Virus record (IMG/VR): IMGVR_UViG_3300025914_000017
Coordinates: 1-48,634 of that record
Length of the DNA: 48,634 nucleotides
Source of the DNA: a virus
Direction: 5' to 3' (one strand)
A model generated the notes under the pieces. It saw only the letters and a list, made by a program, of their open reading frames with translations. It did no database searches and was not told the origin of the DNA. This document shows positions 34,441 to 48,439 of the stretch, in pieces. Each line of letters starts with the position of its first letter. The stretch's first letter is position 1. The position numbers were made by a program, and so were the translations under genes.

Positions 34441-34533
34441 CCATAGCAGTCATTCCAGTTACACTGCACTTACCCATCTTTTAACGGTTAGTACCTGATT
34501 AATGTAGCGGGTAGCTGAGATAAGGAGATTACT

Positions 34534-34725
34534 ATGGCACAATTCAAGATTTTGTCTCAAGTCAATGGTTCTTGGTTGGAGCAGGGGAAAGATCTCGGCG
34601 GTACTACTGTTATGAATCAAGCTGCTCAATTGGAAAAGCAGGGATTGAATGTTCGAGTTTTCCGAACTGATATTCCCAAGTTCATTTATGAAACGGGAGC
34701 AGGATACCACGGAATCTGGTACTGA
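34534..34725 (+). CDS. Hypothetical protein, 63 aa
   Basis: It starts 46 nt after box 1 with a good Shine-Dalgarno (AAGGAG). It is alpha/beta: FKILSQVNGSWLEQ, then a helix MNQAAQLEKQG and NVRVF, resembling small phage proteins with a DUF-like beta-alpha-beta fold. Its function is unknown. It forms a single-gene unit closed by a strong terminator. Confidence 0.7.
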   Translation: MAQFKILSQVNGSWLEQGKDLGGTTVMNQAAQLEKQGLNVRVFRTDIPKFIYETGAGYHGIWY

Positions 34726-34731
34726 AAGAAT

Positions 34732-34758
34732 AAAGGAGCCTAAGGCTCCTTTTCTTTT
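34732..34758 (+). terminator. Rho-independent terminator, symmetric
   Basis: AAAGGAGCC-TAA-GGCTCCTTT is a near-perfect stem followed by TCTTTTT. The A-tract on the left would let it stop transcription from either side. Confidence 0.9.
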
Positions 34759-34765
34759 TATCTTT

Positions 34766-34803
34766 GTGGTATAGGATTTGCTTATTGCAATTAATATACC
34801 AAG
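34766..34803. repeat. Palindromic element copy 3
   Basis: The top strand reads TGGTATAGGATTTGC and the bottom strand TTGGTATATTAATTGCA; both have GG-N10-GC with 5 bp between the inner GCs. It lies right after a terminator and 23 bp before box 2. Confidence 0.8.
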
Positions 34804-34873
34804 ACTTTTTAGATAAAAGAGCTCTACCCATCCTATAACGGAATCAAAGCAGCTATTGTAAGGTAGGTATCAT

Positions 34874-35245
34874 ATGGAATTCACCTATGAGAATGATGAA
34901 GGGGAAGACATTACAGTCACCTTCCCTAGTGTTAAGGTAGTTTGCCCAAGGTGTAAAGGGCACGGAACCCACCTTCACAATGATATTGGTAGCTATGCTT
35001 ACAGCGTAGAAGAATTCCAAGATTCCTTTGATGAAGAAGAACAGGCAGAGTATTTTCGCCATGGTGGAAGATATGACGTTCTCTGCGAACGCTGTCACGG
35101 TAAAAACGTGGTGGATGAGATTGACGAAGAGAAGTGTCAGCAGGATCCGGCTTTGACAGAAGCCTGGCAAGCTTTTTGTCAGAAAGAAAAGGATGATGCT
35201 GATTATGAAAGACTCTGTGAATCAGAGCGGCGCTTTGGTTGCTGA
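34874..35245 (+). CDS. DnaJ-type zinc-finger protein, 123 aa
   Basis: CPRCKGHGTH and CERCHGKNVV are two C-x2-C-x-G units like those of the DnaJ zinc domain, here without J or substrate domains. The N-terminal strand FTYENDEGEDITVTFP precedes them and the rest is an acidic helix ending FGC. It starts 32 nt after its box with AAGGTAGG. It may bind unfolded protein or act as a zinc-dependent adaptor; this is inference from the motif. Confidence 0.7.
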   Translation: MEFTYENDEGEDITVTFPSVKVVCPRCKGHGTHLHNDIGSYAYSVEEFQDSFDEEEQAEYFRHGGRYDVLCERCHGKNVVDEIDEEKCQQDPALTEAWQAFCQKEKDDADYERLCESERRFGC

Positions 35246-35282
35246 TTGAGATCCCATCCTATAACGGATTACTGCTAATAGT

Positions 35283-35495
35283 ATGACAACCCTGCAGAAT
35301 CTCAAGAAGCGTGACTTGTCTTTTGCTTACCAGATTGCAGTGGCAGACTGGAAAAAACTTTCTGCTATGTGTTCTGGGCAGTCAGCTGACGATCTGGCTA
35401 ATGGCTTTCATGGTAAGTCATTGGCTGGAGTGCTGTTTGATTCGGAATTGGCAGTGGATCAGATTGCAGCTAAGCTGGATCGGTTGAATCCTTAA
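35283..35495 (+). CDS. Hypothetical helical protein, 70 aa
   Basis: It starts exactly 15 nt after box 3 with no Shine-Dalgarno. It is mostly alpha-helical and amphipathic (AYQIAVADWKKLSAM, AVDQIAAKLDRLNP). Its function is unknown. It is the last gene before a terminator. Confidence 0.68.
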   Translation: MTTLQNLKKRDLSFAYQIAVADWKKLSAMCSGQSADDLANGFHGKSLAGVLFDSELAVDQIAAKLDRLNP

Positions 35496-35502
35496 GGGAT
35501 TG

Positions 35503-35530
35503 AAAGGGAGGTTTACCTCCCTTTCTTTTT
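35503..35530 (+). terminator. Rho-independent terminator, symmetric
   Basis: AAAGGGAGG-TTTA-CCTCCCTTT is a perfect 9-bp stem followed by CTTTTT. Confidence 0.9.
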
Positions 35531-35538
35531 AATTGATG

Positions 35539-35576
35539 CTGGTATGCCGTTTGCATATTGCAATGTTCGAGCCAAC
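35539..35576. repeat. Palindromic element copy 4
   Basis: TGGTATGCCGTTTGCATATTG on the left and, on the bottom strand, TTGGCTCGAACATTGCA. Both halves keep GG-N10-GC. Box 4 lies 27 bp downstream and opens a non-coding unit. Confidence 0.8.
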
Positions 35577-35618
35577 CGTCATAAAGTTTGCTTTAAACTT
35601 GTTCCCATCTGATAACGG

Positions 35619-35767
35619 ATAGATCCTAATAGTATAGTTTTTCTGAGGGTTCTGACTAAAAGTAAAACCCTCCCCCTTTACGTTGCAAACAGTAACTGTA
35701 GTAGGCAATAAGCTTCCAGTTATATTGTAACAAAGTTTGGCGGTATCTTAAAACCGCCACATTTTTT
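35619..35767 (+). ncRNA. Candidate structured RNA after box 4, with terminator
   Basis: No ORF starts at the usual position: 15 nt after the box the sequence is ATA, not ATG. GAGGGTT...AACCCTC (35645-35672) is a 7-bp hairpin whose loop holds GTTCTGACTAAAA, the same 13 bases found at 38034-38046. GTAACTG...CAGTTA forms another stem near 35689-35722. TGGCGGT...ACCGCCA then T6 (35738-35767) is a Rho-independent terminator. The whole looks like a short non-coding transcript. A decayed gene is the alternative. Confidence 0.55.
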
Positions 35768-35800
35768 AATCCCATCATTTAACGGAAAGGTCTAAGTAAT

Positions 35801-35995
35801 ATGAATACTCTTTTTAAGTTGGTTGTTGTGATGTTGGCATTGTTTGCCGTGACTTTCTTGATTCAAACCTATGCCAATTCTTGGTTTCATCAAGTGGCAT
35901 TCACGGCTCCTATCATTGGAACCATGAGCTATGCAGCTTGTGCCATTGTGGCAGTAGGTTGTGTGTTGCTGTCAAAGCTGCATTGGGGCAAGTAA
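35801..35995 (+). CDS. Small membrane protein, two TM segments, 64 aa
   Basis: It begins 15 nt after box 5. Two hydrophobic helices, FKLVVVMLALFAVTFLIQTY and GTMSYAACAIVAVGCVLL, flank a short loop. Its stop overlaps the next gene's ATG by one base. It may affect the host membrane; there is no family match. Confidence 0.7.
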   Translation: MNTLFKLVVVMLALFAVTFLIQTYANSWFHQVAFTAPIIGTMSYAACAIVAVGCVLLSKLHWGK

Positions 35996-36093
35996 TGTTA
36001 GGTTTCGTGGTGTTTTGCCTGGTAGGTTTTTTTACTGGGCATTGGGTAGTGGGTGGTATTATTGGAATTGTAGTATACGCCCTAAATAAGTAA
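35995..36093 (+). CDS. Single-TM micro-protein, 32 aa
   Basis: MLGFVVFCLVGFFTGHWVVG and a hydrophobic continuation end in YALNK. It is translated by TAATG coupling from the preceding membrane gene rather than from its own box. The two membrane proteins probably act together. Confidence 0.65.
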   Translation: MLGFVVFCLVGFFTGHWVVGGIIGIVVYALNK

Positions 36094-36125
36094 CTCCCAT
36101 CAATAAACGGTTGAATGTTATTGAT

Positions 36126-36302
36126 ATGACATATCATCCCAGTTACCGAGCAGTAGATTCTGTTGGTACTGAATGTGAAACTTTTGAACATGAGTATCAA
36201 GCGGTAGACTATTGGACTGGTGCTCCTACTGGAATTGATATTCAATATTGGAATGGTTCTGAATGGGAAGAATATAATCCTAGGACTTTCACTAAAGATT
36301 AA
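36126..36302 (+). CDS. Hypothetical protein, 58 aa
   Basis: ATG lies 15 nt after box 6 (AAACGG variant). It is beta-rich with many aromatics (YWTGAPTGIDIQYWNGSEWEEY), resembling small phage proteins of a WxGxxW type. Its function is unknown. An upstream TTG start within the box spacer is rejected. Confidence 0.65.
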   Translation: MTYHPSYRAVDSVGTECETFEHEYQAVDYWTGAPTGIDIQYWNGSEWEEYNPRTFTKD

Positions 36303-36338
36303 TTCCCATCAATTAACGGATTGTACCTAGTTATTGAG

Positions 36339-36518
36339 ATGCAAAACCTAAAAGACCGATTGGAAAAGTTAGCAGATTCTTTTAAGGGTACTACCAATTC
36401 TTTTGGTAGGTTTACCGTCACCAATGTAGGTTGCGGGATTCTGAGAGTTGATGGTGAAGGTGTGCAGTATACTCCCGATGTAATATTGGGTTTTCTCAAT
36501 CGACACGGCATTAAGTAA
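36339..36518 (+). CDS. Hypothetical protein, 59 aa
   Basis: ATG lies 19 nt after box 7. A basic helix (MQNLKDRLEKLADSFKG) is followed by strands FGRFTVTNVGCGILRVDG. There is no family match. Confidence 0.62.
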   Translation: MQNLKDRLEKLADSFKGTTNSFGRFTVTNVGCGILRVDGEGVQYTPDVILGFLNRHGIK

Positions 36519-36563
36519 TTCCCATCAATAAACGGATTAGATCTATTAGAAAGGATAAAAAAG

Positions 36564-36668
36564 ATGAAAGCATTCAATTGTTATATTGTCAAGCGCAAGG
36601 GCAAAGTCATCAAGGGTGAGAGTCGCAAGCTGCGCAATGCAGCCAAGCGACAACGTCAAGGTCGCTAA
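36564..36668 (+). CDS. Basic micro-protein, 34 aa
   Basis: MKAFNCYIVKRKGKVIKGES, then a run rich in Arg, Lys and Gln ending RQGR. Thirteen of 34 residues are Lys or Arg, which suggests binding to RNA, DNA or the ribosome. It lies 28 nt after box 8 with AAAGGA as Shine-Dalgarno. A terminator follows. Confidence 0.65.
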   Translation: MKAFNCYIVKRKGKVIKGESRKLRNAAKRQRQGR

Positions 36669-36672
36669 ACCA

Positions 36673-36707
36673 AAAGAATGAGAGCTTAATTGTTCTCATT
36701 CTTTTTT
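36673..36707 (+). terminator. Rho-independent terminator
   Basis: AAAGAATGAGA pairs with TCTCATTCTTT around a 10-nt loop and T6 follows. Confidence 0.88.
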
Positions 36708-36715
36708 AATTGGTC

Positions 36716-36753
36716 TTGGCATATGCTTTGCAACTTGCAATAAGCTTGCCAGG
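36716..36753. repeat. Palindromic element copy 5
   Basis: TTGGCATATGCTTTGCA fits the sigma-54 consensus TGGCAC-N5-TTGCA with one mismatch. The bottom strand TGGCAAGCTTATTGCA is also a match. Box 9 starts 17 bp later. Confidence 0.82.
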
Positions 36754-36810
36754 CGTTATATTTTTATATCCCATCTATTAACGGAAAGACATACTAAGTG
36801 GAGGCTGGTA

Positions 36811-36918
36811 ATGTTCATTAAGATTAAAGCTTTGTTCAAGCTGTATGATCTGGGAATCATTAGCAGCGAACGTTTATCCGAAGCCTTGGTAAAGCTCTCC
36901 CCATCTGATAACGGATAA
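36811..36918 (+). CDS. Micro-protein, 35 aa, helical
   Basis: It starts 26 nt after box 9 with GGAGG upstream. MFIKIKALFKLYDLGIISS then SERLSEALVKL suggests two short helices. Its end runs through box 10 in a different frame, giving SPSDNG before the stop, so box and coding overlap. Confidence 0.62.
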   Translation: MFIKIKALFKLYDLGIISSERLSEALVKLSPSDNG

Positions 36919-36930
36919 AGATTATTAATT

Positions 36931-37134
36931 ATGAATACTCTAGAATTCAGCCGAGCTTGCCGAACAGAGTTTGCTGCTTTGCCGGAAGCCTATCGTAATG
37001 ACGATGTCTTGGAATTCTGGTTTGAGGGTGGGCTTTGGTATTGCCGCCCCAAACTATCAGAAGTAACAATTCTAGGAAACTGGGAATGTTATTATAGTGA
37101 TGGTGTATGGGAGAATCAAGAAGCCCATCTTTAA
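36931..37134 (+). CDS. Hypothetical protein, 67 aa
   Basis: ATG is 16 nt after box 10. It is aromatic-rich with strands LEFWFEGGLWYCRP and WECYYSDGVWEN. The C-terminus ENQEAHL and stop lie inside box 11, read in the +1 frame relative to the P-I-x frame. Confidence 0.65.
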   Translation: MNTLEFSRACRTEFAALPEAYRNDDVLEFWFEGGLWYCRPKLSEVTILGNWECYYSDGVWENQEAHL

Positions 37135-37154
37135 ACGGATGATAGGAGTCTAAT

Positions 37155-37433
37155 ATGAAAGCCAGGACTCAGTATCTGATTAATGTTTATGTCACGTTGA
37201 ATAGTGCTGGTCGTAAGGATCAATTCCGCCGGGGTCGTTACAATGACCCGGAACACTCTGCCATAGCTTGGGGTGGGGTTCATGGTCCTCTTTTGGGCTG
37301 CGAACCTTCCGCTGAGGAATTGCAAGAATTGGTAACAGAGGGTTACATTACAGTTAAGTCCAATGGCGCTGTAACTCCTACAGCTAAAGCTAAGGCGGCT
37401 AGGACTGGAAGCTTAGGCAGTATTAGTCCTTAA
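37155..37433 (+). CDS. Hypothetical protein, 92 aa
   Basis: ATG is 16 nt after box 11. The N-terminus is YLINVYVTLNSAGRKDQF, then a polar, Gly-rich middle, a helix AEELQELVTEGYITV and a low-complexity Ala/Lys end. The ELQELVTEGYI part resembles winged-helix recognition segments, which is weak evidence. Confidence 0.62.
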   Translation: MKARTQYLINVYVTLNSAGRKDQFRRGRYNDPEHSAIAWGGVHGPLLGCEPSAEELQELVTEGYITVKSNGAVTPTAKAKAARTGSLGSISP

Positions 37434-37438
37434 TACCA

Positions 37439-37582
37439 ATGAATAGTTTAGAGCCTAAAGAGACAGAAGATCAACGCAGAGCCCGATTAGCATCAAGAGA
37501 AGATCTAGCGTGTTTAGAGTGCCACCATAGGGTTTGCTTATACTTTTGCTCTAAGAGAGTTAAAAAGCGTCCCATCAAGTAA
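37439..37582 (+). CDS. Small zinc-finger-like protein, 47 aa, ends RPIK
   Basis: It begins MNSLEPKETEDQRRARLASR, an acidic-to-basic helix, followed by C-L-E-C-H-H-R-V-C-L-Y-F-C, a compact Cys/His cluster likely to bind zinc. Its last codons and stop are box 12 read as Pro-Ile-Lys-stop. It has no box of its own and starts 5 bp after the previous stop. Confidence 0.65.
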   Translation: MNSLEPKETEDQRRARLASREDLACLECHHRVCLYFCSKRVKKRPIK

Positions 37583-37600
37583 CGGATTAGTGTATCTAAT

Positions 37601-37828
37601 ATGAAGTACCTAGATGAAAAGTCTGTTACTGCAGTGCGTCGAACTAAGCCTCTAGCAGTTAGGACTAGGTCAGGATATGGGAGTAAACTTCCAACTGATA
37701 TTATGCTGCAATTGAATAAGCGTTGGTATCGGGTCTATGTGATGATCTATTCTAATGCTGGTTCGGCATATATCTTGCAAAAGGGAGAAAAGGTTTTGCT
37801 TGGGTCCTATGATCCTCAACCCATCTAA
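37601..37828 (+). CDS. Hypothetical protein, 75 aa, ends QPI
   Basis: ATG is 15 nt after box 12. The N-terminal 35 residues are basic (AVRRTKPLAVRTRSGYGSK), followed by beta strands RWYRVYVMIYSNAGSAYIL. It stops inside box 13 as Pro-Ile-stop. It could bind nucleic acid, inferred from charge only. Confidence 0.65.
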   Translation: MKYLDEKSVTAVRRTKPLAVRTRSGYGSKLPTDIMLQLNKRWYRVYVMIYSNAGSAYILQKGEKVLLGSYDPQPI

Positions 37829-37840
37829 TAACGGATTCCA

Positions 37841-37870
37841 GGGGAGCTGTAATGGCTCCCTTTTCTTTTT
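37841..37870 (+). terminator. Rho-independent terminator directly after box 13
   Basis: GGGAGC-TGTAATG-GCTCCC followed by TTTTCTTTTT. Box 13 therefore has no gene of its own; it serves only as the end of the previous gene or as a relic. Confidence 0.88.
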
Positions 37871-37876
37871 GGTGGG

Positions 37877-37914
37877 GTGGCAAGGCTTTTGCATATTGCA
37901 AGGCTCGTGCCACG
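37877..37914. repeat. Palindromic element copy 6
   Basis: The bottom strand TGGCACGAGCCTTGCA is an exact match to the sigma-54 consensus TGGCAC-N5-TTGCA. The top strand TGGCAAGGCTTTTGCA is nearly so. Box 14 lies 12 bp downstream. Confidence 0.85.
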
Positions 37915-37941
37915 CCCCAATAACAACCCATCTATTAACGG

Positions 37942-38078
37942 ATTAATAGGTATTATGTATCCGATTGGTTGGCACCTTTTTAGTTAGTAGTGAAACATAA
38001 TTCATTAGCTTTCACTGGCAATTAATGAATTATGTTCTGACTAAAACTAAGGTTCGATTCCTTAGAGTCGGGCTAATT
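37942..38078 (+). ncRNA. Candidate structured RNA after box 14, with tRNA-minihelix-like 3' end
   Basis: Only a 10-codon ORF (37955-37987, MYPIGWHLFS) follows the box. CATAATTCATTA pairs perfectly with TAATGAATTATG over 12 bp. Competing with it, AGTGAAA and TTTCACT could make an H-type pseudoknot. At the 3' end, TCTGACT-AAAA-CTAAGG-TTCGATT-CCTTAG-AGTCGGG forms an acceptor/T-arm-like hairpin with a canonical T-loop and a CTA end. It is a possible RNase P or tRNase substrate or a decayed tRNA. Box 15 follows directly. Confidence 0.55.
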
Positions 38079-38108
38079 CCCATCTAATAACGGTAGAATA
38101 TAATTAAT

Positions 38109-38201
38109 ATGAATCGCACTAAGCAAAACCTAGATTCTGCTAAGATGCTGGTTGCTAAAGCTCTGGCTATTCTGGCGCAAGCTGGTTTGGCTCAACGATA
38201 G
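38109..38201 (+). CDS. Micro-protein, 30 aa, helical
   Basis: ATG is 15 nt after box 15. MNRTKQNLDSAKMLVAKALA is followed by ILAQAGLAQR, a single amphipathic helix rich in Ala. Its function is unknown. The next gene starts 8 bp later with its own GAGAAGACA leader. Confidence 0.6.
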   Translation: MNRTKQNLDSAKMLVAKALAILAQAGLAQR

Positions 38202-38209
38202 AGAAGACA

Positions 38210-38413
38210 ATGAAAAAGCCCAATCAAGAATTGTTTCGGCTGCTTCGTTTTGCCATTCGTTTTCCAGGCTGGCACTCTTACGATTCCAGTGTAGCTAAAC
38301 ATATCAAAAGGGCAGCTGCATTGGAATTTCTGGAAGTTGATACCAAAACCAAACAATTCCGATTGATGCCAAGTCAATGGGCGGAAGACTTTCGCAAAGG
38401 TCCCATCGTTTAA
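38210..38413 (+). CDS. Hypothetical protein, 67 aa, ends GPIV
   Basis: This small basic protein has FRLLRFAIRFPGWHSYDS and a helix AKHIKRAAALEFLEV, then strands. It resembles winged-helix fragments in which a helix-turn-helix is followed by a hairpin (KTKQFRLMP). It stops inside box 16 as Pro-Ile-Val-stop. Confidence 0.65.
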   Translation: MKKPNQELFRLLRFAIRFPGWHSYDSSVAKHIKRAAALEFLEVDTKTKQFRLMPSQWAEDFRKGPIV

Positions 38414-38431
38414 CGGTTGAGGGTATCTAAT

Positions 38432-38647
38432 ATGAATCTCAATAAAAGAATCAAGCTGGATCGTTCCTTCGAACTAGCAGAAGATTCTGCTAAGCCTGAT
38501 ATTACTGGAACCATTGTGGGCTTGGGACATATTGTCGGCATAACAGTTTATATCGTGGAACTGGATCAAGGTTTCTATTCGCCAGATAGGCGAATCTATA
38601 TTAGCAGAATGGTAGTAGCAAGGGAAAGCCTTCGTCCCATCGAATAA
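38432..38647 (+). CDS. Hypothetical beta-rich protein, 71 aa, ends RPIE
   Basis: ATG is 15 nt after box 16. Strands ITGTIVGLGHIVGITVYIVEL and FYSPDRRIYISRMVVA suggest a small SH3- or OB-like barrel. It ends inside box 17 as Pro-Ile-Glu-stop. Confidence 0.65.
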   Translation: MNLNKRIKLDRSFELAEDSAKPDITGTIVGLGHIVGITVYIVELDQGFYSPDRRIYISRMVVARESLRPIE

Positions 38648-38650
38648 CGG

Positions 38651-38805
38651 GTGAAGGTAACTAACTGGGGACTGAAACCCGAGCTGACCGAAAGGAAAAG
38701 CTCCATATAGTATTACTGGATGAGATCCTAATCCGGGTTGTAAAAGAATAACGGTTGGTACCGTTTACAATCATGTCGAAAGACCTTAGGCTGGCGAAGT
38801 AAGTC
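38651..38805 (+). ncRNA. Candidate multi-branched structured RNA between boxes 17 and 18
   Basis: No ORF is present. GGGGACT (38667-38673) pairs with AGTCCCC (38802-38808), closing the element and sequestering the CCC of box 18. Inside, AACCC/GGGTT (38676-38680 with 38735-38739) encloses GAGCT/AGCTC with a CC-GAAA-GG hairpin, plus GGAT/ATCC. Then AACGGT-TGGT-ACCGTT extended by TTGTA/TACAA, and GTC-GAAA-GAC (38775-38784). Several tetraloop hairpins in 140 nt are unlikely by chance. It could be a ribozyme, riboswitch or regulatory RNA. I do not recognise the family. Confidence 0.6.
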
Positions 38806-38835
38806 CCCATCATTTAACGGCGGAAGATTAATAAC

Positions 38836-39078
38836 ATGAGGAAAAACGCTCAAAAGGTTCTGCAAGCTTTCAATGCTGGGCAGGCTGCTAATGAGAAAAC
38901 CATTAGCACCAATGGTAAGGAATTGTTTTCCTACGCCATGTTGATCGCCCGCAAGAATGGCGATAAGGTAGAGCTTATCGATTATAGTAAAGCTCCCAGC
39001 AACACTACCCGCAGTCAGGTTAACGCAGTGCGGCAATTCTTTCCTGCTAGTCAGATTGTGGTAGTGGAGAGTTTCTAA
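38836..39078 (+). CDS. Hypothetical protein, 80 aa
   Basis: ATG is 15 nt after box 18. A helix QKVLQAFNAGQAAN is followed by strand and helix segments ELFSYAMLIARKNGDKVELI and a second helix. It looks like a compact alpha/beta protein; no family is assigned. Confidence 0.65.
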   Translation: MRKNAQKVLQAFNAGQAANEKTISTNGKELFSYAMLIARKNGDKVELIDYSKAPSNTTRSQVNAVRQFFPASQIVVVESF

Positions 39079-39079
39079 A

Positions 39080-39102
39080 AACAAGTTTTCCTAAAACTTG
39101 TT
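39080..39102 (+). promoter_or_regulatory. Perfect hairpin immediately upstream of box 19
   Basis: AACAAGTTTT-CCT-AAAACTTGTT is a 10-bp perfect stem ending one base before the box. Similar AAACTTG hairpins precede boxes 4 and 26. There is no T-run, so it may be a processing or protection element rather than a terminator. Confidence 0.6.
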
Positions 39103-39132
39103 CCCATCCTTTAACGGAATAAGGCTCTTACC

Positions 39133-39327
39133 ATGAGAGTTGGTCCTGCTACACTATCCTACTTGAAACGTTTGGGCGATGAGGAAGCTGCTTTGATGTT
39201 GAAAGCCGGTTCATTGGTTTTCAGTCAAGCTCAAAAAGCAGGTTTGACGCCGGGTTTCTTTTTCATTCAAGGGCAACTGAGAATGGTGCCAGTACCCAAA
39301 ACCTTTGCAGTGAGTCCCATCTTCTAA
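39133..39327 (+). CDS. Hypothetical protein, 64 aa, ends SPIF
   Basis: ATG is 15 nt after box 19. A helix TLSYLKRLGDEEAALMLKAG is followed by TPGFFFIQGQLRMVPV, a hairpin. It stops inside box 20 as Pro-Ile-Phe-stop. Its function is unknown. Confidence 0.65.
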   Translation: MRVGPATLSYLKRLGDEEAALMLKAGSLVFSQAQKAGLTPGFFFIQGQLRMVPVPKTFAVSPIF

Positions 39328-39345
39328 CGGAAGGATCCTTCTAAT

Positions 39346-39501
39346 ATGGAAGAGTTAATGGATCGAGCCCGGGAATGGGTCAATGAGAATTATCCTCACT
39401 TGGAAGGCGATGACTATTCCGCCAAGCTAGAAGAGACACTATGGGATCTGGCGGAGATTGATGGCACGGATCCTATTAACTATCTGACTTATTATAATTA
39501 A
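39346..39501 (+). CDS. Acidic helical protein, 51 aa
   Basis: ATG is 15 nt after box 20. MEELMDRAREWVNENYPHLE then YSAKLEETLWDLAEIDG is strongly acidic and helical, and it ends YLTYYN. Small acidic helical proteins in phages often act as inhibitors or DNA mimics; no specific target can be named. Confidence 0.65.
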   Translation: MEELMDRAREWVNENYPHLEGDDYSAKLEETLWDLAEIDGTDPINYLTYYN

Positions 39502-39637
39502 TTACACTAAAGCAATAATTGAGGTTTAATGATTCGAGCCCCGCCGAGCTAGGCGTCTCTAATGTTTAATAATAGTTGATTGAATTTATAAGATTACAGT
39601 TTGAGAGGAATGGGGAGAAGGCGACCTTCTCCCCATT
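39502..39637 (+). other. Non-coding segment with hairpins and a long terminator-like stem
   Basis: It contains CGCC-GAGCTA-GGCG (about 39542-39555), preceded by GATTCGAGCCCC, which resembles a tRNA T-loop and 3' end. AATGGGGAGAAGG-CGA-CCTTCTCCCCATT (39609-39637) is a perfect 13-bp hairpin. No T-run follows, so termination would be unusual. No gene is seen. Confidence 0.5.
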
Positions 39638-39654
39638 CCAATGTTATACATTGG
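39638..39654. repeat. Short inverted repeat abutting palindromic element 7
   Basis: CCAATGT-TAT-ACATTGG is a perfect 7-bp inverted repeat. Its right arm overlaps the start of palindromic element 7. It occurs at no other copy, so it may be a local operator. Confidence 0.45.
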
Positions 39655-39688
39655 TATAGGCTTTGCATCTTGCAATCCTTATACCAAC
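39651..39688. repeat. Palindromic element copy 7
   Basis: TTGGTATAGGCTTTGCA on top and TTGGTATAAGGATTGCA on the bottom strand; both have GG-N10-GC and the arms are almost perfect complements. Box 21 begins 16 bp later. Confidence 0.82.
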
Positions 39689-39734
39689 CTTGCTATTATC
39701 TTTCCCATCCAATAACGGAAGCATTCAATTAGAT

Positions 39735-39911: not shown

Positions 39912-39936
39912 CGGCTAGAGACATAATATAAGAAAC

Positions 39937-40101: not shown

Positions 40102-40125
40102 AAACCTGTTCCCATCTGATAACAG

Positions 40126-40212: not shown

Positions 40213-40258
40213 TCCATCTAATAACGGCTCCTAGATACTAATTGAAAGAATAAAGACA

Positions 40259-40354: not shown

Positions 40355-40361
40355 AAACTTA

Positions 40362-42593: not shown

Positions 42594-42620
42594 CGGACTA
42601 CTAATAATAGTATAAGACAA

Positions 42621-42923: not shown

Positions 42924-42924
42924 T

Positions 42925-43101: not shown

Positions 43102-43106
43102 GCCTC

Positions 43107-43313
43107 ATGTCTAAGTGTGAACATGTATTTCCACGTGTAGCTAATTACGAGTTATTAGGCACTGGTGGCAAAAGGATTATATGGTCCTGCAATAACTGTC
43201 TTTCCATCAAGGTTCACTTCATTAATGATGTAAAAGTTAATGATAAATGGACTACATATGAAAAAACAGTCATAGTAGACTGTTTAGATTACGATCCTGA
43301 TCCCATCCAGTAA
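43107..43313 (+). CDS. Zinc-ribbon-like protein, 68 aa, ends DPIQ
   Basis: CEHVF at the N-terminus and WSCNNCLSIKVHF later give C-x-H...C-x2-C, a probable zinc ribbon. A strand-rich C-terminus follows. It ends inside box 34 as Pro-Ile-Gln-stop. It starts 5 bp after the previous stop without its own box. Confidence 0.67.
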   Translation: MSKCEHVFPRVANYELLGTGGKRIIWSCNNCLSIKVHFINDVKVNDKWTTYEKTVIVDCLDYDPDPIQ

Positions 43314-43331
43314 CGGTTAGGTACAACCAAT

Positions 43332-43484
43332 ATGACAACTATGTATCTAATACGCGATACCACTGGCAAGATATTGTCGAGTTGCTCTTTCAATTCCGTT
43401 GCAGCTTTATGTGAAGCAGTTAAGGTCTGGCATTATTTGGGCAACATTAGCGCCGATAGCTATGGTGTTGTAGTTATCTTTTAG
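43332..43484 (+). CDS. Hypothetical protein, 50 aa
   Basis: ATG is 15 nt after box 34. Strand YLIRDTTGKILSS, helix SVAALCEAVKVWHYLG and strand YGVVVIF form a small beta-alpha-beta unit. It ends TAG three bases before box 35. Confidence 0.63.
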   Translation: MTTMYLIRDTTGKILSSCSFNSVAALCEAVKVWHYLGNISADSYGVVVIF

Positions 43485-43516
43485 TTCCCATCCTATAACG
43501 GCTAGGTACAATTAAT

Positions 43517-43975
43517 ATGAGCCAGTTATCCGAAGCCCTAAAAAAAGTCGCTGCTATTGCATCTTCTACCTACCTAGGAGAAGAGACTGAAAAGTATAGT
43601 CAAGGCAGCGGTACTTACAAGGTTAATAAGTGGAAAGTAGAATTGTCTTTCCAGGGGCGCCGATATACTTGTCCCTTATATAAGACAGGTGAAGGTCTTC
43701 GAAAGAAAAAGTACAGCTTTAATAGCAAGCTGGGACAATGGGGTAATTTTCCCGTTGCAGGATCAAACCACCCTGATGTAGCTGACGTTATTCATTGTCT
43801 GATTACTGATACTCATTGCGGCATGATGGCATTCGACGAGTATTGCAGCGAGTTTGGACTTGATACTGATTCCCGTGCTGCTTTCAAAGTGTGGGAGCAA
43901 TGCGTGGAAACTGCTGGACCTTTTAGACGGTTTCTAGGTTCGGAGTTTGATCATCTGTCAATGTTGGAACACTAA
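43517..43975 (+). CDS. Conserved phage/plasmid-type protein, 152 aa
   Basis: It contains DVADVIHCLITDTHC...FDEYCSEFGLDTDSRAAFKVWEQC...FRRFLG, a pattern I know from uncharacterised phage and plasmid proteins, where the FxxWCxxFGYDxDSRKA core is conserved. The N-terminal half is a beta sheet (WKVELSFQGRRYTCPLYKTG). The role is unknown. It is one of the few recognisable families in this region. Confidence 0.72.
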   Translation: MSQLSEALKKVAAIASSTYLGEETEKYSQGSGTYKVNKWKVELSFQGRRYTCPLYKTGEGLRKKKYSFNSKLGQWGNFPVAGSNHPDVADVIHCLITDTHCGMMAFDEYCSEFGLDTDSRAAFKVWEQCVETAGPFRRFLGSEFDHLSMLEH

Positions 43976-44211
43976 TGAAAACTTACAGGCTCAAAGAAAA
44001 CCATCCCACCTATCAGAAATTTCTTAAGCTATATAATCTAGCTGAGAAGTTAGGTATCTCTCTTGAATTTATTGGAGATCAATGTTTTTTGGTAGATTTT
44101 GATCTGCCTAAGATACGGTTTCAAGTGAAAGATATAGAGCCTAATCATATCTTAACTTCGTTTCCTTATCCAACGGAATTTGAGATTACATATCAGAAGC
44201 CCCATCCATAG
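43975..44211 (+). CDS. Hypothetical protein, 78 aa
   Basis: It starts by TAATG overlap with the preceding gene. Helix YQKFLKLYNLAEKLGISLEF is followed by strands. It ends inside variant box 36, read as K-P-H-P-TAG, and that box has AGACGG, so the stop is TAG here. Confidence 0.65.
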   Translation: MKTYRLKENHPTYQKFLKLYNLAEKLGISLEFIGDQCFLVDFDLPKIRFQVKDIEPNHILTSFPYPTEFEITYQKPHP

Positions 44212-44230
44212 ACGGAAGTGTGTATTTAAT

Positions 44231-44518
44231 ATGCGCAACTATCAAAGCATGATTGAGCGACGAAAAGCGGAATTCCAAGATCATTTCTCGGATGTTGGAT
44301 TGTCCAAACAGTTCATTCAATATTACGAGAATGGCAAGCGTATCAAGGTGCGGTTTCCCGATGGTCGTACAGAGTGCGGTACCGTTGGAGTTACAACCGG
44401 TTGGGTCCCTTGCTTTCTGCTAATGCATCGCAGTACTGATACTGGAAGCTCTACAGTCTTGGCAGACATGGATAAGATTGTGGGCGTGCAAGTCAGTAAG
44501 AAGTACGTTACGCCGTGA
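44231..44518 (+). CDS. Hypothetical protein, 95 aa
   Basis: ATG is 15 nt after variant box 36. The N-terminus is a charged helix (YQSMIERRKAEFQDHF). GKRIKVRFPDGRTECGTVGVT then reads like an SH3-type barrel seen in small phage proteins. It is the last gene before a terminator. Confidence 0.67.
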   Translation: MRNYQSMIERRKAEFQDHFSDVGLSKQFIQYYENGKRIKVRFPDGRTECGTVGVTTGWVPCFLLMHRSTDTGSSTVLADMDKIVGVQVSKKYVTP

Positions 44519-44521
44519 ATG

Positions 44522-44550
44522 GAAAAGGAGCATCTGCTCCTTTTCATTTT
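44522..44550 (+). terminator. Rho-independent terminator, symmetric
   Basis: GAAAAGGAGC-ATCT-GCTCCTTTTC is a perfect 10-bp stem followed by ATTTT. Confidence 0.9.
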
Positions 44551-44556
44551 GCCCAA

Positions 44557-44594
44557 TATGGTATGTGCTTTGCATATTGCAGCATTCGTACCAC
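44557..44594. repeat. Palindromic element copy 9
   Basis: TGGTATGTGCTTTGCA on top and TGGTACGAATGCTGCA on the bottom strand keep GG-N10-GC. Box 37 follows 24 bp downstream. Confidence 0.82.
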
Positions 44595-44655
44595 TACCTC
44601 CGGGGCAAAAAACAAACTCCCATCACATAACGGGTTGATACTAAAGGTAAGAGAT

Positions 44656-44865: not shown

Positions 44866-44896
44866 TCCCATCTTCTAACGGATGAATGCAATTAAT

Positions 44897-45193: not shown

Positions 45194-45226
45194 TTCCCAT
45201 CCTGTAACGGAACCAGTATATTAATT

Positions 45227-45409
45227 ATGGATAGATTTACAAGGTGTCTGCTACTAGGTCTATTCTTCTTTGTTCTAAACGTTCTTTTATATAAGATGTT
45301 TAGGTTGGTTTATTGGGAACGTACAGTCATTACCTCTATAGTAGCACTTTATGTCGGTTGGTTTCATGACAGTTGGTTTTTCAAAAAAAGAAATAAACCC
45401 ATCCAGTAA
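45227..45409 (+). CDS. Small membrane protein, two TM segments, 60 aa, ends KPIQ
   Basis: LLLGLFFFVLNVLLYKMF and VITSIVALYVGWFHDSWF are membrane segments; the C-terminus is basic. It stops inside box 40 as Pro-Ile-Gln-stop. ATG is 16 nt after box 39. Confidence 0.68.
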   Translation: MDRFTRCLLLGLFFFVLNVLLYKMFRLVYWERTVITSIVALYVGWFHDSWFFKKRNKPIQ

Positions 45410-45446
45410 CGGATATTATCTTCCTATTGTAAGAAAGTAAAAGACA

Positions 45447-45851: not shown

Positions 45852-46033
45852 TGAAAAAGCGCAATCGCTGTAAGTGTAAAAAGTGTGGTACGATTATTGA
45901 ATCCAAACATCGGCATGACTTTGTTTACTGTAGATGTAAGTCCATTTTCACTGATGGTGGAACTGATTACATTAGAAGGGGAGGAGATCTTTCTTTAATT
46001 GAGGAAGTTCCAGAAGATAACAACATCTCCTAA
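45851..46033 (+). CDS. Small zinc protein with KCG...HRHDFV...DGG motif, 60 aa
   Basis: CKCKKCGTIIESKHRHDFVY then CRCKSIFTDGGTDYIRRGGD matches a small conserved family found in phages and Gram-positive bacteria. Its function is unknown. It starts by TAATG overlap and ends inside the variant box 41 as Asn-Ile-Ser-stop. Confidence 0.73.
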   Translation: MKKRNRCKCKKCGTIIESKHRHDFVYCRCKSIFTDGGTDYIRRGGDLSLIEEVPEDNNIS

Positions 46034-46044
46034 CGGAATATATT

Positions 46045-46338: not shown

Positions 46339-46369
46339 TCCCATCTGATAACGGTGGAGCATATCTAAT

Positions 46370-46588
46370 ATGAAGATTACAGCAGATCGTTTCAGTGAGC
46401 TATCTCTTTCGATTCAAGATCAAGCCACTAGTCTTTACAATAAGGCTTTTCGTTTGGGCTTTAATGCCGAGCTTGGCGCTAAAGATGGTGGCACTGAAAC
46501 TGTCATTAGCATGATTACGGAACTGGAATCTACCTTGCGGGTATTGAAACGACGCCTGCAGGAAACCCTCCCATCCTCTAACGGGTAG
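46370..46588 (+). CDS. Hypothetical helical protein, 72 aa
   Basis: ATG is 15 nt after box 42. Helices FSELSLSIQDQATSLYNKAF and STLRVLKRRLQETL are probably amphipathic. It ends through box 43 in another frame (LPSSNG then TAG). Confidence 0.65.
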   Translation: MKITADRFSELSLSIQDQATSLYNKAFRLGFNAELGAKDGGTETVISMITELESTLRVLKRRLQETLPSSNG

Positions 46589-46599
46589 AGATACTTATT

Positions 46600-46842
46600 A
46601 TGCAAGCCAGTCTTTGTGATTCAGATTGCAGTGAAAATGCTGTCATAGCAATCCTTCAAGGTGAAGGTGCTGCTAAGTTTGCCAAAGAGACATGTCAATC
46701 GCTCAATGGTAGCAACTGGGAATGTGATGGCAATGATTTTGCCTATTGTCTCACGGAAAACTGTCCAAGCTTATTGGAAGAATTCCAAAAAGACTTGGGC
46801 GATATTGAGATAAACGATTCTGAGTATACTCCCATCACATAA
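46600..46842 (+). CDS. Hypothetical acidic protein, 80 aa, ends TPIT
   Basis: ATG is 15 nt after box 43. It is acidic with six cysteines spread along the chain (ASLCDSDCSEN, TCQSL, ECDGN, YCLTENCPS), which may form a metal site. It stops inside box 44 as Pro-Ile-Thr-stop. Confidence 0.65.
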   Translation: MQASLCDSDCSENAVIAILQGEGAAKFAKETCQSLNGSNWECDGNDFAYCLTENCPSLLEEFQKDLGDIEINDSEYTPIT

Positions 46843-46859
46843 CGGATAATAAATATAAT

Positions 46860-47057
46860 ATGTTAACTCAAAAGGGAATGGAAATTCTGTTGAAGATGTA
46901 TTCTCTACATCGCAGCAATTTCTTAGAAACTCATGATGGTTGCAATCGGAATGATTGCGAGCGGGATTTTCTCCATAACATTCTGTCGAAAGTTTCCGGT
47001 AGTTATAACGAAATTGTCTATGCCAAGTTAGCTAACGAGATTGAAAGCATTCGATGA
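46860..47057 (+). CDS. Hypothetical helical protein, 65 aa
   Basis: ATG is 14 nt after box 44. Helix QKGMEILLKMYSLHRSNFLE is followed by a Cys/Asn/Asp loop and a second helix. Its stop overlaps the lipoprotein gene (ATGA). Confidence 0.63.
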   Translation: MLTQKGMEILLKMYSLHRSNFLETHDGCNRNDCERDFLHNILSKVSGSYNEIVYAKLANEIESIR

Positions 47058-47452
47058 AAGCTGTACTACTAGGATTGTTACTGTTAGGTTGCGGAGATCA
47101 TGATAATCCTCCTCCGGAAGCCCCTAAGTTTTGCATTCAACCCGCCGCCACTTATGTAGAAAGTTTTAGTCCGGTCTATGGTAGTTGTCCAGGTTTACCA
47201 TCAGTTTTGATTACCATTCCGGAAGATGGAAGTTTTCCAATCAATACGGATGAAACCTGTCATGTTAAGGTAGATGGTTGCAAGGCAGACAATACTGGGT
47301 GCGTGTATCAGAGTGACGGCTGCACTATCAAGTCTGATACCACTGTCACCTTTAAGGATGATGGTACTGCAGTAGGCTATATGACAGTATCGACAGCTAA
47401 GTGTGGATACGACTGTATGGGTATCTATGAGTTGTACTTAGTTAAGCAATAA
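47054..47452 (+). CDS. Lipoprotein, 132 aa, Cys-rich
   Basis: MKAVLLGLLLLGCGDHDNPP is a short signal with a good lipobox (LLLG-C, Cys at 13), so the mature protein should be lipid-anchored in a Gram-negative envelope. The mature part has eight further cysteines and looks like a small all-beta domain. A phage lipoprotein can block superinfection by masking receptors; this is inference. Confidence 0.78.
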   Translation: MKAVLLGLLLLGCGDHDNPPPEAPKFCIQPAATYVESFSPVYGSCPGLPSVLITIPEDGSFPINTDETCHVKVDGCKADNTGCVYQSDGCTIKSDTTVTFKDDGTAVGYMTVSTAKCGYDCMGIYELYLVKQ

Positions 47453-47454
47453 CT

Positions 47455-47646
47455 ATGGAACTGGTAAAGTTAGGCGCTAAGCAAGGCACAGAATGCTGTA
47501 CCTGTAGAAACAGGATTAAGCATAACGAGATCTGTTATCGAAAACAACGCTTAGCCGAAACTTATCACGAACGATTACATGCTAACGGTAAAGGCATGGT
47601 TCAATGGTACCATCACAAGTCATGCATTGAAAAAATTCCCATCTGA
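47455..47646 (+). CDS. Small zinc protein, 63 aa, ends KIPI
   Basis: KLGAKQGTECCTCRNRIKHN then E-I-C-Y and WYHHKSC resemble a PARP-type zinc finger, in which C-x2-C...H-x-x-C binds zinc and recognises nucleic acid ends. It stops inside box 45 as Pro-Ile-stop (TGA then TAA). Confidence 0.68.
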   Translation: MELVKLGAKQGTECCTCRNRIKHNEICYRKQRLAETYHERLHANGKGMVQWYHHKSCIEKIPI

Positions 47647-47667
47647 TAACGGATACCTACGAGTAAT

Positions 47668-47877
47668 ATGAGTAGCAAATGCACAGTTAAGAAAGCCAAA
47701 GAGTTGAATGCCTATGACATTAAATTCAAGCTAACGCAGGGAGAATTAATTGCATTGTACAATGCATTAAAACGATATTCCTCTGCTTCTACTGGAGGCG
47801 CGGCTGTACACGCTTATCTGTGTAATAGTTTGCAAGAGCTGTCTGTGGAACATGGCGTCAAGTTTCCCATCGACTAA
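47668..47877 (+). CDS. Hypothetical helical protein, 69 aa, ends FPID
   Basis: ATG is 15 nt after box 45. Strand DIKFKLTQGELIALYNALKR enters a helix, and AAVHAYLCNSLQELSVEHG is a second helix. It stops inside box 46 as Pro-Ile-Asp-stop. Confidence 0.65.
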   Translation: MSSKCTVKKAKELNAYDIKFKLTQGELIALYNALKRYSSASTGGAAVHAYLCNSLQELSVEHGVKFPID

Positions 47878-47895
47878 CGGAAGAGCTTATTTAAT

Positions 47896-48405
47896 ATGCT
47901 AAGTATGAAGGTAGAGACGGTTGTTAACGCACTAGTTACTCAATTGCTGTCAACGGATCTATATAATGAAGCAATTCATTTCCACTTGGATTGCCGGCTC
48001 AATTACTTTGAGGATGGCAAGCGTAATTATCGAACGGCACGCGCCTTGCATTTGCTATATCAGCGTCATACGGGAAGCACCTATATCAGTGCCTTTTCTG
48101 CTGTCTTGGATAATCCATTCGATAAGATTGATAAGGTCAAAGATTGGAATCATGAATGCACTCATGACTACTGCTGGCGTAGTGTAAACTGTTTCTCTGC
48201 CGTCTATTTTTCTATGGCAGAAGATATTAATCGTCAGTTGGTAAAAGCTGGATTGTCGGAAGTAGCACCCATTGATATGAGAGAGTTTAACTCTTTTGGT
48301 GGCATTAGCGGAAATGTTTTCCAATTGGTTCCAGTCAAGGTAGAACTGGATCCTACAGACAAGAATCATCATAGAAGGATGATAACAGTTTCTCCCATCC
48401 TTTAA
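47896..48405 (+). CDS. Hypothetical protein, 169 aa, ends SPIL
   Basis: ATG is 15 nt after box 46. It is mostly helical with several His and Asp residues (AIHFHLDCRLNYFEDG, HECTHDYCWRSVNC). HECTHDYC might be a metal site. It stops inside box 47 as Pro-Ile-Leu-stop. It is one of the larger proteins of this region; no family is recognised. Confidence 0.66.
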   Translation: MLSMKVETVVNALVTQLLSTDLYNEAIHFHLDCRLNYFEDGKRNYRTARALHLLYQRHTGSTYISAFSAVLDNPFDKIDKVKDWNHECTHDYCWRSVNCFSAVYFSMAEDINRQLVKAGLSEVAPIDMREFNSFGGISGNVFQLVPVKVELDPTDKNHHRRMITVSPIL

Positions 48406-48439
48406 CGGAATAGTGCTTAGATTATTACCAGGAAAGTAA

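Follow-up and report, generated by a model that had tools for sequence, protein, structure and literature searches.

The right end of a huge phage genome carries a 15-bp box, CCCATC-N3-TAACGG, that recurs in a single orientation ahead of small genes, and judging from sequence we give about an even chance to the view that it is a directional DNA signal, most likely a phage-specific promoter core, at which the 5' ends of short RNAs are set. In the window, i.e., the whole stretch of 48,634 nt analyzed here, the exact pattern matched 40 times, always on the + strand, compared with a mean of 0.00 in shuffled sequences. When up to two mismatches were allowed, 47 boxes were found, again all on the + strand (shuffles: mean 1.38, largest 6). 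The first starts at 34473, none lies to the left of it, and the last occupies 48394-48408. This recount is in full agreement with an earlier note on this DNA, which had listed 47 + strand copies, 40 exact and seven altered, and an empty left 34 kb. While 41 of the 47 boxes are located between ORFs, six formally fall inside an ORF of 40 or more codons that was called mechanically from an upstream ATG. The array extends beyond the window, which by sequence match forms the right-hand end of a phage contig of 447,763 bp (G001), a distant relative of Bacillus phage G. With at most one mismatch, G001 contains 90 boxes (79 exact, 11 with one mismatch) at 1.3-76 kb and 433.6-447.5 kb and none in reverse orientation, and 92 of its 111 forward CCCATC copies belong to gene-start boxes. 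Box direction equals gene direction for all 47 boxes of the window and all 90 of the contig.

The proposed link between the box and small genes holds for 40 of the 47 boxes, which are followed within 80 nt by an ATG that begins an ORF of 30 or more codons; for the other seven, marked in the table, no such ATG was found within this distance. The link is not exclusive, as some boxes precede a tRNA or a non-coding RNA. In G001, a box is situated just before tRNA-Leu 12053 and tRNA-Arg 71786 and another before tRNA-Leu 76113, here with a hairpin in between, such that three of the 37 tRNA genes predicted by ARAGORN have a box just upstream. Dozens of tiny genes sit behind boxes, and so do some tRNAs and non-coding RNAs.

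An ATG exactly 15 nt past the box, previously reported for 22 copies, was confirmed for 22 of 47, and each of the 22 starts an ORF 30 codons or longer. Measured from the CCC to the first following ATG that starts a 30-codon frame, the distance is 30 nt for 32 of 90 boxes in G001 and for 11 of 52 in a relative with a different box (G021, see below), but for none of 15 in another relative, G008. A TAAT ahead of the ATG, also described earlier, is strong in the G001 class with the ATG at 15 nt but weak among the remaining G001 boxes, and by eye no TAAT-like element was seen before the ATG in G008. Likewise, the weak or absent Shine-Dalgarno sequence noted for the 15-nt class applies to G001, where a 4-nt core is present between box and ATG in nine of 36 cases, but not to the corresponding class of G021 (12 of 15). 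The 30-nt ATG spacing is equally expected of a translation signal.

Table: Boxes, intrinsic terminator hairpins and sigma54-like elements in the window. "No ATG ORF" stands for no ATG ORF of 30 codons within 80 nt.
Feature	Position	Strand	Remarks
box	34473-34487	+	exact
terminator	34732-34752	+	precedes sigma54-like element
sigma54-like element	34767-34806	+	in inverted repeat, between terminator and box; forward half ends TTGCT, misses strict pattern; reverse half (34786-34801) fits
box	34827-34841	+	exact
box	35253-35267	+	exact; ATG at 15 nt
terminator	35502-35525	+	precedes sigma54-like element
sigma54-like element	35540-35575	+	TGGTATGCCGTTTGCA; 3' half partly palindromic
box	35604-35618	+	exact; no ATG ORF
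terminator	35738-35759	+	hairpin and T run; 11 nt before box 35771
box	35771-35785	+	exact; ATG at 15 nt; directly 3' of terminator 35738-35759
box	36096-36110	+	1 mismatch
box	36305-36319	+	exact
box	36521-36535	+	1 mismatch
terminator	36675-36702	+	precedes sigma54-like element
sigma54-like element	36717-36751	+	palindromic 3' half
box	36770-36784	+	exact
box	36900-36914	+	exact
box	37124-37138	+	1 mismatch
box	37571-37585	+	exact
box	37820-37834	+	exact; no ATG ORF
terminator	37841-37861	+	precedes sigma54-like element
sigma54-like element	37878-37912	+	palindromic 3' half
box	37927-37941	+	exact; no ATG ORF
box	38079-38093	+	exact
box	38402-38416	+	exact
box	38636-38650	+	exact; no ATG ORF
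box	38806-38820	+	exact
box	39103-39117	+	exact
box	39316-39330	+	exact
sigma54-like element	39652-39687	+	palindromic 3' half
box	39704-39718	+	exact
box	39900-39914	+	exact
box	40111-40125	+	1 mismatch; no ATG ORF
box	40213-40227	+	1 mismatch
terminator	40363-40386	+	67 nt before box 40454; no sigma54-like element between
box	40454-40468	+	exact
box	40784-40798	+	exact
box	41335-41349	+	exact; no ATG ORF
terminator	41489-41509	+	precedes sigma54-like element
sigma54-like element	41527-41562	+	palindromic 3' half
box	41587-41601	+	exact; no ATG ORF
box	41739-41753	+	exact
box	42156-42170	+	exact
box	42369-42383	+	exact
box	42582-42596	+	exact
box	42895-42909	+	exact
box	43302-43316	+	exact
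box	43487-43501	+	exact
box	44201-44215	+	2 mismatches
terminator	44526-44541	+	precedes sigma54-like element
sigma54-like element	44559-44593	+	palindromic 3' half
box	44619-44633	+	exact
box	44867-44881	+	exact
box	45196-45210	+	exact
box	45398-45412	+	exact
box-like	46022-46036	+	2 mismatches (first block damaged)
box	46340-46354	+	exact
box	46570-46584	+	exact
box	46831-46845	+	exact
box	47638-47652	+	exact
box	47866-47880	+	exact
box	48394-48408	+	exact

Within 200 nt upstream, terminators were found for 8 of the 45 boxes in one part of G001 and 5 of the 45 in the other (95 and 13 of 1000 random positions, respectively), for 3 of 52 boxes in G021 (random 30/1000) and for 0 of 15 in G008 (random 29/1000); within 110 nt, the numbers were 10 of 90 in G001 and 0 of 9 in G003, a further relative. 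In nine of the 13 G001 cases and all three in G021, a sigma54-like element is inserted between terminator and box, and two boxes follow a terminator directly, at 11 and 22 nt, without such an element. Bacterial sigma54 promoters have a -24/-12 consensus, start transcription about 12 nt downstream and need an activator ATPase. The elements that separate a terminator from its first box match TGGYA-N7-TGCA, with TGG at -24, TGC at -12 and fixed spacing, and are putative promoters; this pattern occurs 16 times in the window on both strands against 0.86 expected, 15 of the matches lying at 34228-44593. They differ from bacterial sigma54 promoters in that most have a palindromic 3' half, and the sigma54 activator domain (PF00158) was absent from all seven family records searched, two of them fragments. 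Since these elements occupy the operon heads, the operon promoter may be something other than the box, which would rather serve as a second, per-gene start beside them.

Searching related phages with the motif, as the earlier note had suggested, was productive: two diverged relatives, G003 (9 boxes) and G008 (15 boxes), carry the same box, while a third, G021 (52 boxes), has a different one, CTCCCATTCA, in an unchanged layout. Seven of the nine G003 boxes have a collinear counterpart in G001, often between poorly alignable flanks. At one locus shared by all four phages, each phage's own box (CCCATCGTCTAACGG, CCCATCAAGTAACGG, CTCCCATTCACAC and CCCATCGCCTAACGG) precedes an RNA hairpin with an anti-Shine-Dalgarno loop; G001, G003 and G021 have flanking orthologues to either side of it, and G008 has them downstream. 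The box is conserved at collinear loci and differs between sister phages at an orthologous one.

In two further relatives, G027 and G028, the bare hexamer CCCATC forms a dense array on one strand, with regular spacing and a density that peaks and then falls over about 100 kb; G028 holds 352 copies. CCCATC stands 29 before the ATG at 10 of 106 ORF starts in G027 and 14 of 97 in G028, with means per offset of 0.68 and 0.66, and most hexamers fall within ORFs called mechanically, and do so in every frame. The reverse complement is nearly missing across the whole G028 genome: on the coding strand, GATGGG was seen four times against 74.7 expected, and at 145-300 kb CCCATC/GATGGG is the most avoided of 2080 hexamer pairs (2 seen, 31.5 expected). 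Forward CCCATC is also scarce in the late region of G028 (1 seen, 6.9 expected). Avoidance of GATGGG is weak in G027 at 400-452 kb (6 seen, 10.5 expected), and nothing comparable was detected in G008, G021, phage G, G024 or G016; G008 has the CCCATC box, yet its GATGGG counts are close to expectation (39 versus 37.8 and 51 versus 52.7). That G028 avoids the reverse complement suggests a reader of double-stranded DNA. If the hexamers are promoters, theirs would be the densest oriented array of start sites that we know of. Only tentatively do we extend this to a family of phage G-like huge phages, which might possess a fast-evolving one-way start code, with sister phages having changed from the 15-bp two-block box to a box of 10-13 bp and to bare CCCATC, each with a cognate factor. 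The hexamer would then constitute a dense same-strand array of starts or roadblocks, densest where the small-gene region begins and purged from late genes and the other strand, perhaps letting polymerase pull the incoming genome one-way into the cell.

Three models had been put forward for the box, a promoter of a phage-specific RNA polymerase, an RNA signal and a recombination boundary of gene cassettes. The promoter reading is the best supported, by direction gene for gene, by boxes before tRNAs and the conserved hairpin, by the two boxes directly after terminators and by the reverse avoidance in G028. Against it stand the scarcity of boxes behind terminators, the small share of tRNA genes with a box, the negative polymerase searches described below, the unavoided GATGGG of G008 and its weak avoidance in G027, and bare hexamers inside ORFs in all frames would be odd for promoters. 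An RNA-level element is unlikely; here the transcribed box would tag each message so that translation starts on it, or so that it is protected or cleaved into monocistronic RNAs. The favored ATG distance in several phages and the lack of a detected terminator upstream of most boxes would suit this view, and start-associated sequences (SAS), the closest published analogue, are presumed to act in translation (PMC11373665), but the distance is not kept in G008, cutting or misreading would affect the hexamers that G027 and G028 have within ORFs, and G028 points to reading of double-stranded DNA. Boxes that precede tRNAs and hairpins, far from any ATG, hardly agree with a signal for translation alone. 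For T4-like phages, PeSL cassettes comprise a terminator, a promoter-like element and a small gene in a variable region, with a promoter and a stem-loop terminator at each boundary, and related strains gain and lose genes exactly between these units; the cassettes are cited in PMC4503421. Here, a terminator within 110 nt marks only the 10 of 90 boxes given above.

Rather unlikely, too, is a set of oriented roadblocks, at which a two-domain phage protein would bind the asymmetric bipartite site, halt elongation in one direction and shut down the small-gene region. In cluster A mycobacteriophages, stoperators are asymmetric 13-mers that occupy short gaps between genes and point in the direction of transcription; the phage repressor that binds them to stop elongation is a monomer and has two DNA-binding domains (PMC9283540). 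The bipartite box resembles them in asymmetry, siting (formally, six of 47 lie in a mechanical ORF) and orientation; most boxes, moreover, have no terminator upstream and lie in stretches headed by other promoter-like elements, and the arrays of G027 and G028 run within genes. However, roadblocks predict neither the frequent exact 30-nt ATG distance nor the strong reverse avoidance in G028, because reversed stoperators are said to lose repression. Furthermore, no repressor was identified, boxes also precede tRNAs and hairpin RNA, and the counts, 90 boxes for G001 and 352 hexamers for G028, contrast with "more than twenty" stoperator sites. A genome-scale polar motif (Chi- or KOPS-like, or a strand bias against type III restriction) that later became fixed at the gene starts of some phages appears very improbable. 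It would account for the one-stranded, regularly spaced and declining arrays and for the reverse avoidance, but not for the location of most G001 hexamers in gene-start boxes with a second conserved block and a favored ATG distance, nor for the scarcity of the forward hexamer in the late region of G028.

Among known systems, SAS and extended SAS (ESAS) are unrelated to the box in sequence. PMC3203893, PMC12699233 and PMC11373665 describe SAS/ESAS as an asymmetric site of 13 bp that precedes many genes, for the most part in one orientation and away from the structural module. A subset of the sites is preceded by an inverted repeat with a putative promoter, and the repeat sequence of the ESAS varies between subclusters. 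Asymmetry, single orientation and position before many genes are shared by the box, a subset of which also follows an inverted repeat with a promoter-like core after terminators. In contrast to the SAS consensus GGGATAGGAGCCC, which usually lies 3-9 bp from the start codon, the commonest class of boxes ends 15 nt before the ATG, and by eye the box itself contains no Shine-Dalgarno core; boxes also precede tRNAs and hairpin RNA, the putative promoter is sigma54-like instead of SigA-like, sister phages have bare hexamer arrays, and the phage group is a different one (phage G-like, about 450 kb). With the phage-polymerase promoters of AR9 and phiKZ, the box shares a very short consensus at many gene starts of a giant phage; the AR9 late promoter reads AACA-6N-TA/G and has 13 additional internal copies (PMC5312081). 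The box differs in having two blocks with C and G.

Under the promoter reading, a phage factor would recognize the CCCAT block and, in this phage, also the TAACGG block, and RNA would start just downstream, at the GG or shortly after, so that the transcript would bring along a leader, either short (about 15-17 nt) or longer and structured, or else a tRNA or a small RNA. The box links several non-coding RNAs and dozens of tiny genes of this phage into one candidate regulon. It also gives access, through sequence, to the way in which huge uncultured phages operate regions of small, mostly unknown genes. The dedicated phage RNA polymerase of the earlier model was not found in G001 by profile and motif searches: the single-subunit polymerase profile PF00940 gave no match, as in the control genomes, and of three ORFs of at least 150 aa matching the regular expression D.DGD (beta-prime catalytic DxDGD), which is a pattern match only, none yielded a polymerase family in Pfam, nor did this motif reveal a multisubunit phage polymerase. 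Nature has provided a series here, as sister phages kept their gene order while their recognition signal changed, so the search for the reader is tractable as one for a protein whose recognition residues track the box. The only conserved candidate among these phages is a small sigma-like protein, which might act on host RNA polymerase.

The repetition of the box in the window is real. Exact copies (CCCATCNNNTAACGG) number 40, all on the + strand (0.00 in shuffles), and 47 are found, again all on +, when up to two mismatches are allowed (1.38 in shuffles). The counts of the earlier note are thereby reproduced, as is its statement that an ATG lies exactly 15 nt after 22 of the 47 boxes. Each of these 22 ATGs begins an ORF that is 30 codons or longer; the start of an ATG ORF of that length lies within 80 nt of 40 of the 47 boxes, and the remaining seven have none. 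Positions 1-48,629 of the window correspond to the right end of IMGVR_UViG_3300009545_000018 (G001), a phage contig of 447,763 bp, with a 99.994% match, and both may derive from a common sample. G001 carries 90 boxes (79 exact, 11 with one mismatch), all in the forward orientation; they occupy 433.6-447.5 kb and 1.3-76 kb and thin out after a dense beginning. Because G001 starts inside a Sulfatase gene (PF00884, profile match from position 22) and an ORF is still open where the window ends, we infer that the contig ends probably join. Among cultured phages, the closest relative found, judged by the probable major capsid protein, is Bacillus phage G (54% identity over 84%). Window 33921-34458, immediately to the left of box 34473, holds no listed ORF of 60 aa and lies where G+C jumps from about 29% to 41%; this stretch could be a genome end, an origin or a packaging site.

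The search of related phages proposed in the earlier note found the box in two diverged relatives, G003 and G008, and a different box with the same layout in a third, G021. G003 (67,329 bp) is collinear with G001 at about 31.8-95 kb, with protein identities of about 29-85% and isolated matches elsewhere. It has nine exact boxes, none reversed. A collinear counterpart box exists in G001 for seven of them, of which 29600 and 29673 share G001 57130, one has a counterpart with two mismatches (53241), and 364 and 31854 were placed by the downstream gene only, their flanks being unalignable. No box occurs at the collinear G001 places of G003 boxes 17603 and 56689. G008 (327,423 bp) shows collinearity with G001 in about the right two thirds of its length and scattered matches in the remainder, and 191 of its 638 ORFs match G001 (23-84% identity). 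Its 15 exact boxes all read CCCATCGCCTAACGG, with none reversed. Homologous genes follow the boxes at G008 38088 and G001 18888 (40% identity), and a weaker pair follows G008 50839 and G001 21678 (26%). G005, with box positions identical to those of G008, was omitted. Protein A1 as query recovered G001 and G003 only. Nine contigs with a single box and contig G002 were judged to be chance matches and dropped, and the exact box occurred neither in phage G nor in three more distant records.

The exact box was likewise absent from 22 large contigs whose capsid protein is closely related, which were picked from the 80 listed of 102 contigs with a related capsid protein and include G021 (480,838 bp). 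A dyad scan of G021 yielded CTCCCATTCA, 56 times forward and never reversed in 140 kb, often followed by CGG and arranged as in G001, dense then sparse, ahead of small genes. Measured from the initial C of CCCAT, the distance to the first ATG opening 30 codons is 30 nt for 32 of 90 boxes in G001, 11 of 52 in G021 and none of 15 in G008.

Boxes also precede non-coding RNAs. Of 37 predicted tRNA genes in G001, three follow a box and most have none, and several other G001 boxes are followed by leaders of 60-110 nt with stem-like sequence, as seen by eye; Rfam and ARAGORN searches of the window gave no match. In four phages a box is followed by a long-stemmed hairpin with CCCUCCUUU, complementary to a Shine-Dalgarno sequence, in its loop; the loop is kept and the stems have diverged. 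Genes flanking this locus on both sides are common to G001 and G003, G008 shares the downstream gene, and in G021 the hairpin sits between orthologues of two of the flanking G001 genes (upstream gene 31%, lysyl-tRNA synthetase 51% identity). In G001, G003 and G021 the hairpin is followed by a tRNA-Leu; none was detected after the G008 hairpin. The hairpin scan gave one match in each of the four phages and none in other sequences at equal threshold; a looser motif combined with a stricter stem failed to detect the G003 and G021 hairpins and returned two unrelated matches. The RNA may serve as a decoy by binding Shine-Dalgarno sequences. At this locus the sequence of the box has changed while its place before a non-coding RNA has been kept, which argues for a signal setting RNA 5' ends rather than a translation signal.

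Coordinates of features in the window and in related phage records
Feature	Record	Position	Context	z
Sigma54-like elements	window	34228, 34404-34438, 34767-34806, 35540, 36717, 37878, 39652, 41527, 44559
tRNA-Leu	G001	12053	preceded by box 12015
tRNA-Arg	G001	71786	preceded by box 71737
tRNA-Leu	G001	76113	preceded by box 76021, hairpin between
Hairpin RNA, anti-Shine-Dalgarno loop	G001	76036-76112 (L023)	behind box 76021	-4.2
Hairpin RNA, anti-Shine-Dalgarno loop	G003	48351-48480 (L051)	behind box 48336	-3.2
Hairpin RNA, anti-Shine-Dalgarno loop	G008	96958-97070 (L078)	behind box 96943	-5.75
Hairpin RNA, anti-Shine-Dalgarno loop	G021	9053-9190 (L206)	behind own box CTCCCATTCACAC at 9040
IMP dehydrogenase/GMP reductase	window	11544-12611
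Papain-like protease	window	13059-13880
LAGLIDADG protein	window	19761-21422
Peptide release factor	window	26226-27305

In two further relatives, G027 and G028, the dyad scan gave no clear dyad, and the bare hexamer CCCATC was noticed afterwards as the most strand-skewed one in the scanned regions (231:6 over 52 kb and 306:3 over 140 kb, respectively). It reaches a maximum density close to 40 per 5 kb, which then declines over about 100 kb. The gaps are regular with a mode of 100-150 bp, and those below 20 bp number 2 and 1 as opposed to about 24 and 23 in jittered controls. Copies lie between mechanically called ORFs in 35 of 166, 7 of 69 and 60 of 252 cases and otherwise within ORFs in all frames, many of the overlapped ORFs being on the opposite strand and possibly spurious. 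Among offsets before ATG, 29 is overrepresented (10 of 106 starts in G027 and 14 of 97 in G028; per-offset means 0.68 and 0.66). G026, 99.98% identical to G027 over 51 kb, was left out of the counts. No CCCAT array was found in the scanned parts of six further family records (G024, G016, G025, G015, G018 and G023), whose dense region may lie outside these parts.

The whole of G028 holds 352 forward and 4 reverse copies of CCCATC, and its coding strand has 4 GATGGG where 74.7 are expected. At 145-300 kb of G028, none of the 2080 hexamer pairs is more strongly avoided than CCCATC/GATGGG (2 seen, 31.5 expected; forward CCCATC alone, 1 and 6.9). GATGGG is also below expectation in G027 (0 seen, 14.8 expected at 0-80 kb; 6 and 10.5 at 400-452 kb), at 80-430 kb of G001 (20 and 53.9) and in G003 (9 and 14.0). 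Such avoidance is absent in G021, phage G, G024, G016 and also G008, though the latter has the CCCATC box. Avoidance of the reverse orientation suggests that the signal is read directionally from double-stranded DNA, as a promoter is.

Terminators are modestly enriched upstream of boxes, in G001 only. They occur within 110 nt of 10 of 90 G001 boxes versus 18 of 2000 random positions, and of none of nine G003 boxes. Within 200 nt, the numbers are 8 of 45 boxes versus 95 of 1000 random positions in the right part of G001, 5 of 45 versus 13 of 1000 in its left part, 3 of 52 versus 30 of 1000 in G021, and 0 of 15 versus 29 of 1000 in G008. At window 35771 and G001 15177 the terminator nearly abuts the box, the gaps of 11 and 22 nt comprising the T run and at most about 15 further bases, a layout that favours initiation at the box. 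TGGYA-N7-TGCA resembles the sigma54 promoter consensus at -24/-12, and TGGYA-N7-TGC lies between terminator and box in 9 of 13 cases in G001 and 3 of 3 in G021, so operons may start at these elements, with the boxes inside. The window has 16 TGGYA-N7-TGCA matches on both strands (0.86 in dinucleotide shuffles); its sigma54-like elements mostly have a palindromic 3' half and stand at operon heads after terminators, and similar ones occur in G021, G027, G024 and G016. Against simple base shuffles, which may give low expectations, the motif is enriched in dense regions of G021 (9 forward, 0.6 expected) and G027 (13, 0.1) and in parts of G024 (7, 0.8) and G016 (7, 0.7), less so in G028 (4, 1.1), phage G (7, 1.8), G001 20-430 kb (7, 2.4) and G008 100-327 kb (5, 1.6), and not in G003 (1, 0.5) or G008 0-100 kb (0, 0.8).

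It is these elements at operon heads that weigh most against reading the box as a simple promoter. Our best reading is that the box is a promoter core or another DNA signal setting RNA 5' ends, and we give it an even chance of being right. Roadblocks resembling stoperators, the oriented repressor sites of cluster A mycobacteriophages, are an unlikely explanation, and a start sequence acting at the RNA level appears rather improbable. A polar DNA motif of the Chi or KOPS kind is possible for G027 and G028 and very improbable as an account of the box. A signal for translation only is set back by the boxes ahead of tRNAs and the hairpin RNA. Leaderless mRNA starting at the ATG was rejected on the Shine-Dalgarno core that G021 has between box and ATG in 12 of 15 cases. 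A MotA-like arrangement with TAAT as the -10 element was rejected as well, since it would place the start inside the 22 ORFs, and TAAT was not seen by eye in G008. The closest published kind is the asymmetric start-associated sites (SAS/ESAS) of cluster K mycobacteriophages, the role of the SAS being itself unsettled; the one paper listed as containing CCCATC and phage as whole words concerned phi29 replication origins.

A protein with a Sigma70_r4 match above the cut-off was found in each of the eight records searched, which represent phage G, six distinct phages of the family and a near-copy of one of these six. The G001 protein (258405-258842, 145 aa) has its strongest PHROG matches to sigma factor families (best 3.1e-07) and weaker ones to other helix-turn-helix families, and is no more than a candidate for the reader of the box. 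A PF00940 search of G001 for a T7-like polymerase gave no match, nor did it in control genomes. The NADFDGD-type motif of a multisubunit polymerase was absent, D.DGD matches looked like chance, and none of seven family records had a phage sigma54 activator.

Some further observations were made in passing. Phage G (NC_023719) contains strand-biased dyads, e.g., GATAT-N8-TATAA, TATAA-N8-TAAGG and AAAAC-N3-TTACA, which are probably host-type promoters. At 145-300 kb of G028 (reverse-complement coordinates), 22 hexamer pairs are at zero in 155 kb and each of the eight listed contains GGCC, as if a GGCC-cutting restriction enzyme had shaped the genome. G008 294757-299454 (L088) encodes a 1565-aa protein split by an intein with a LAGLIDADG domain; its G001 orthologue has 1153 aa.
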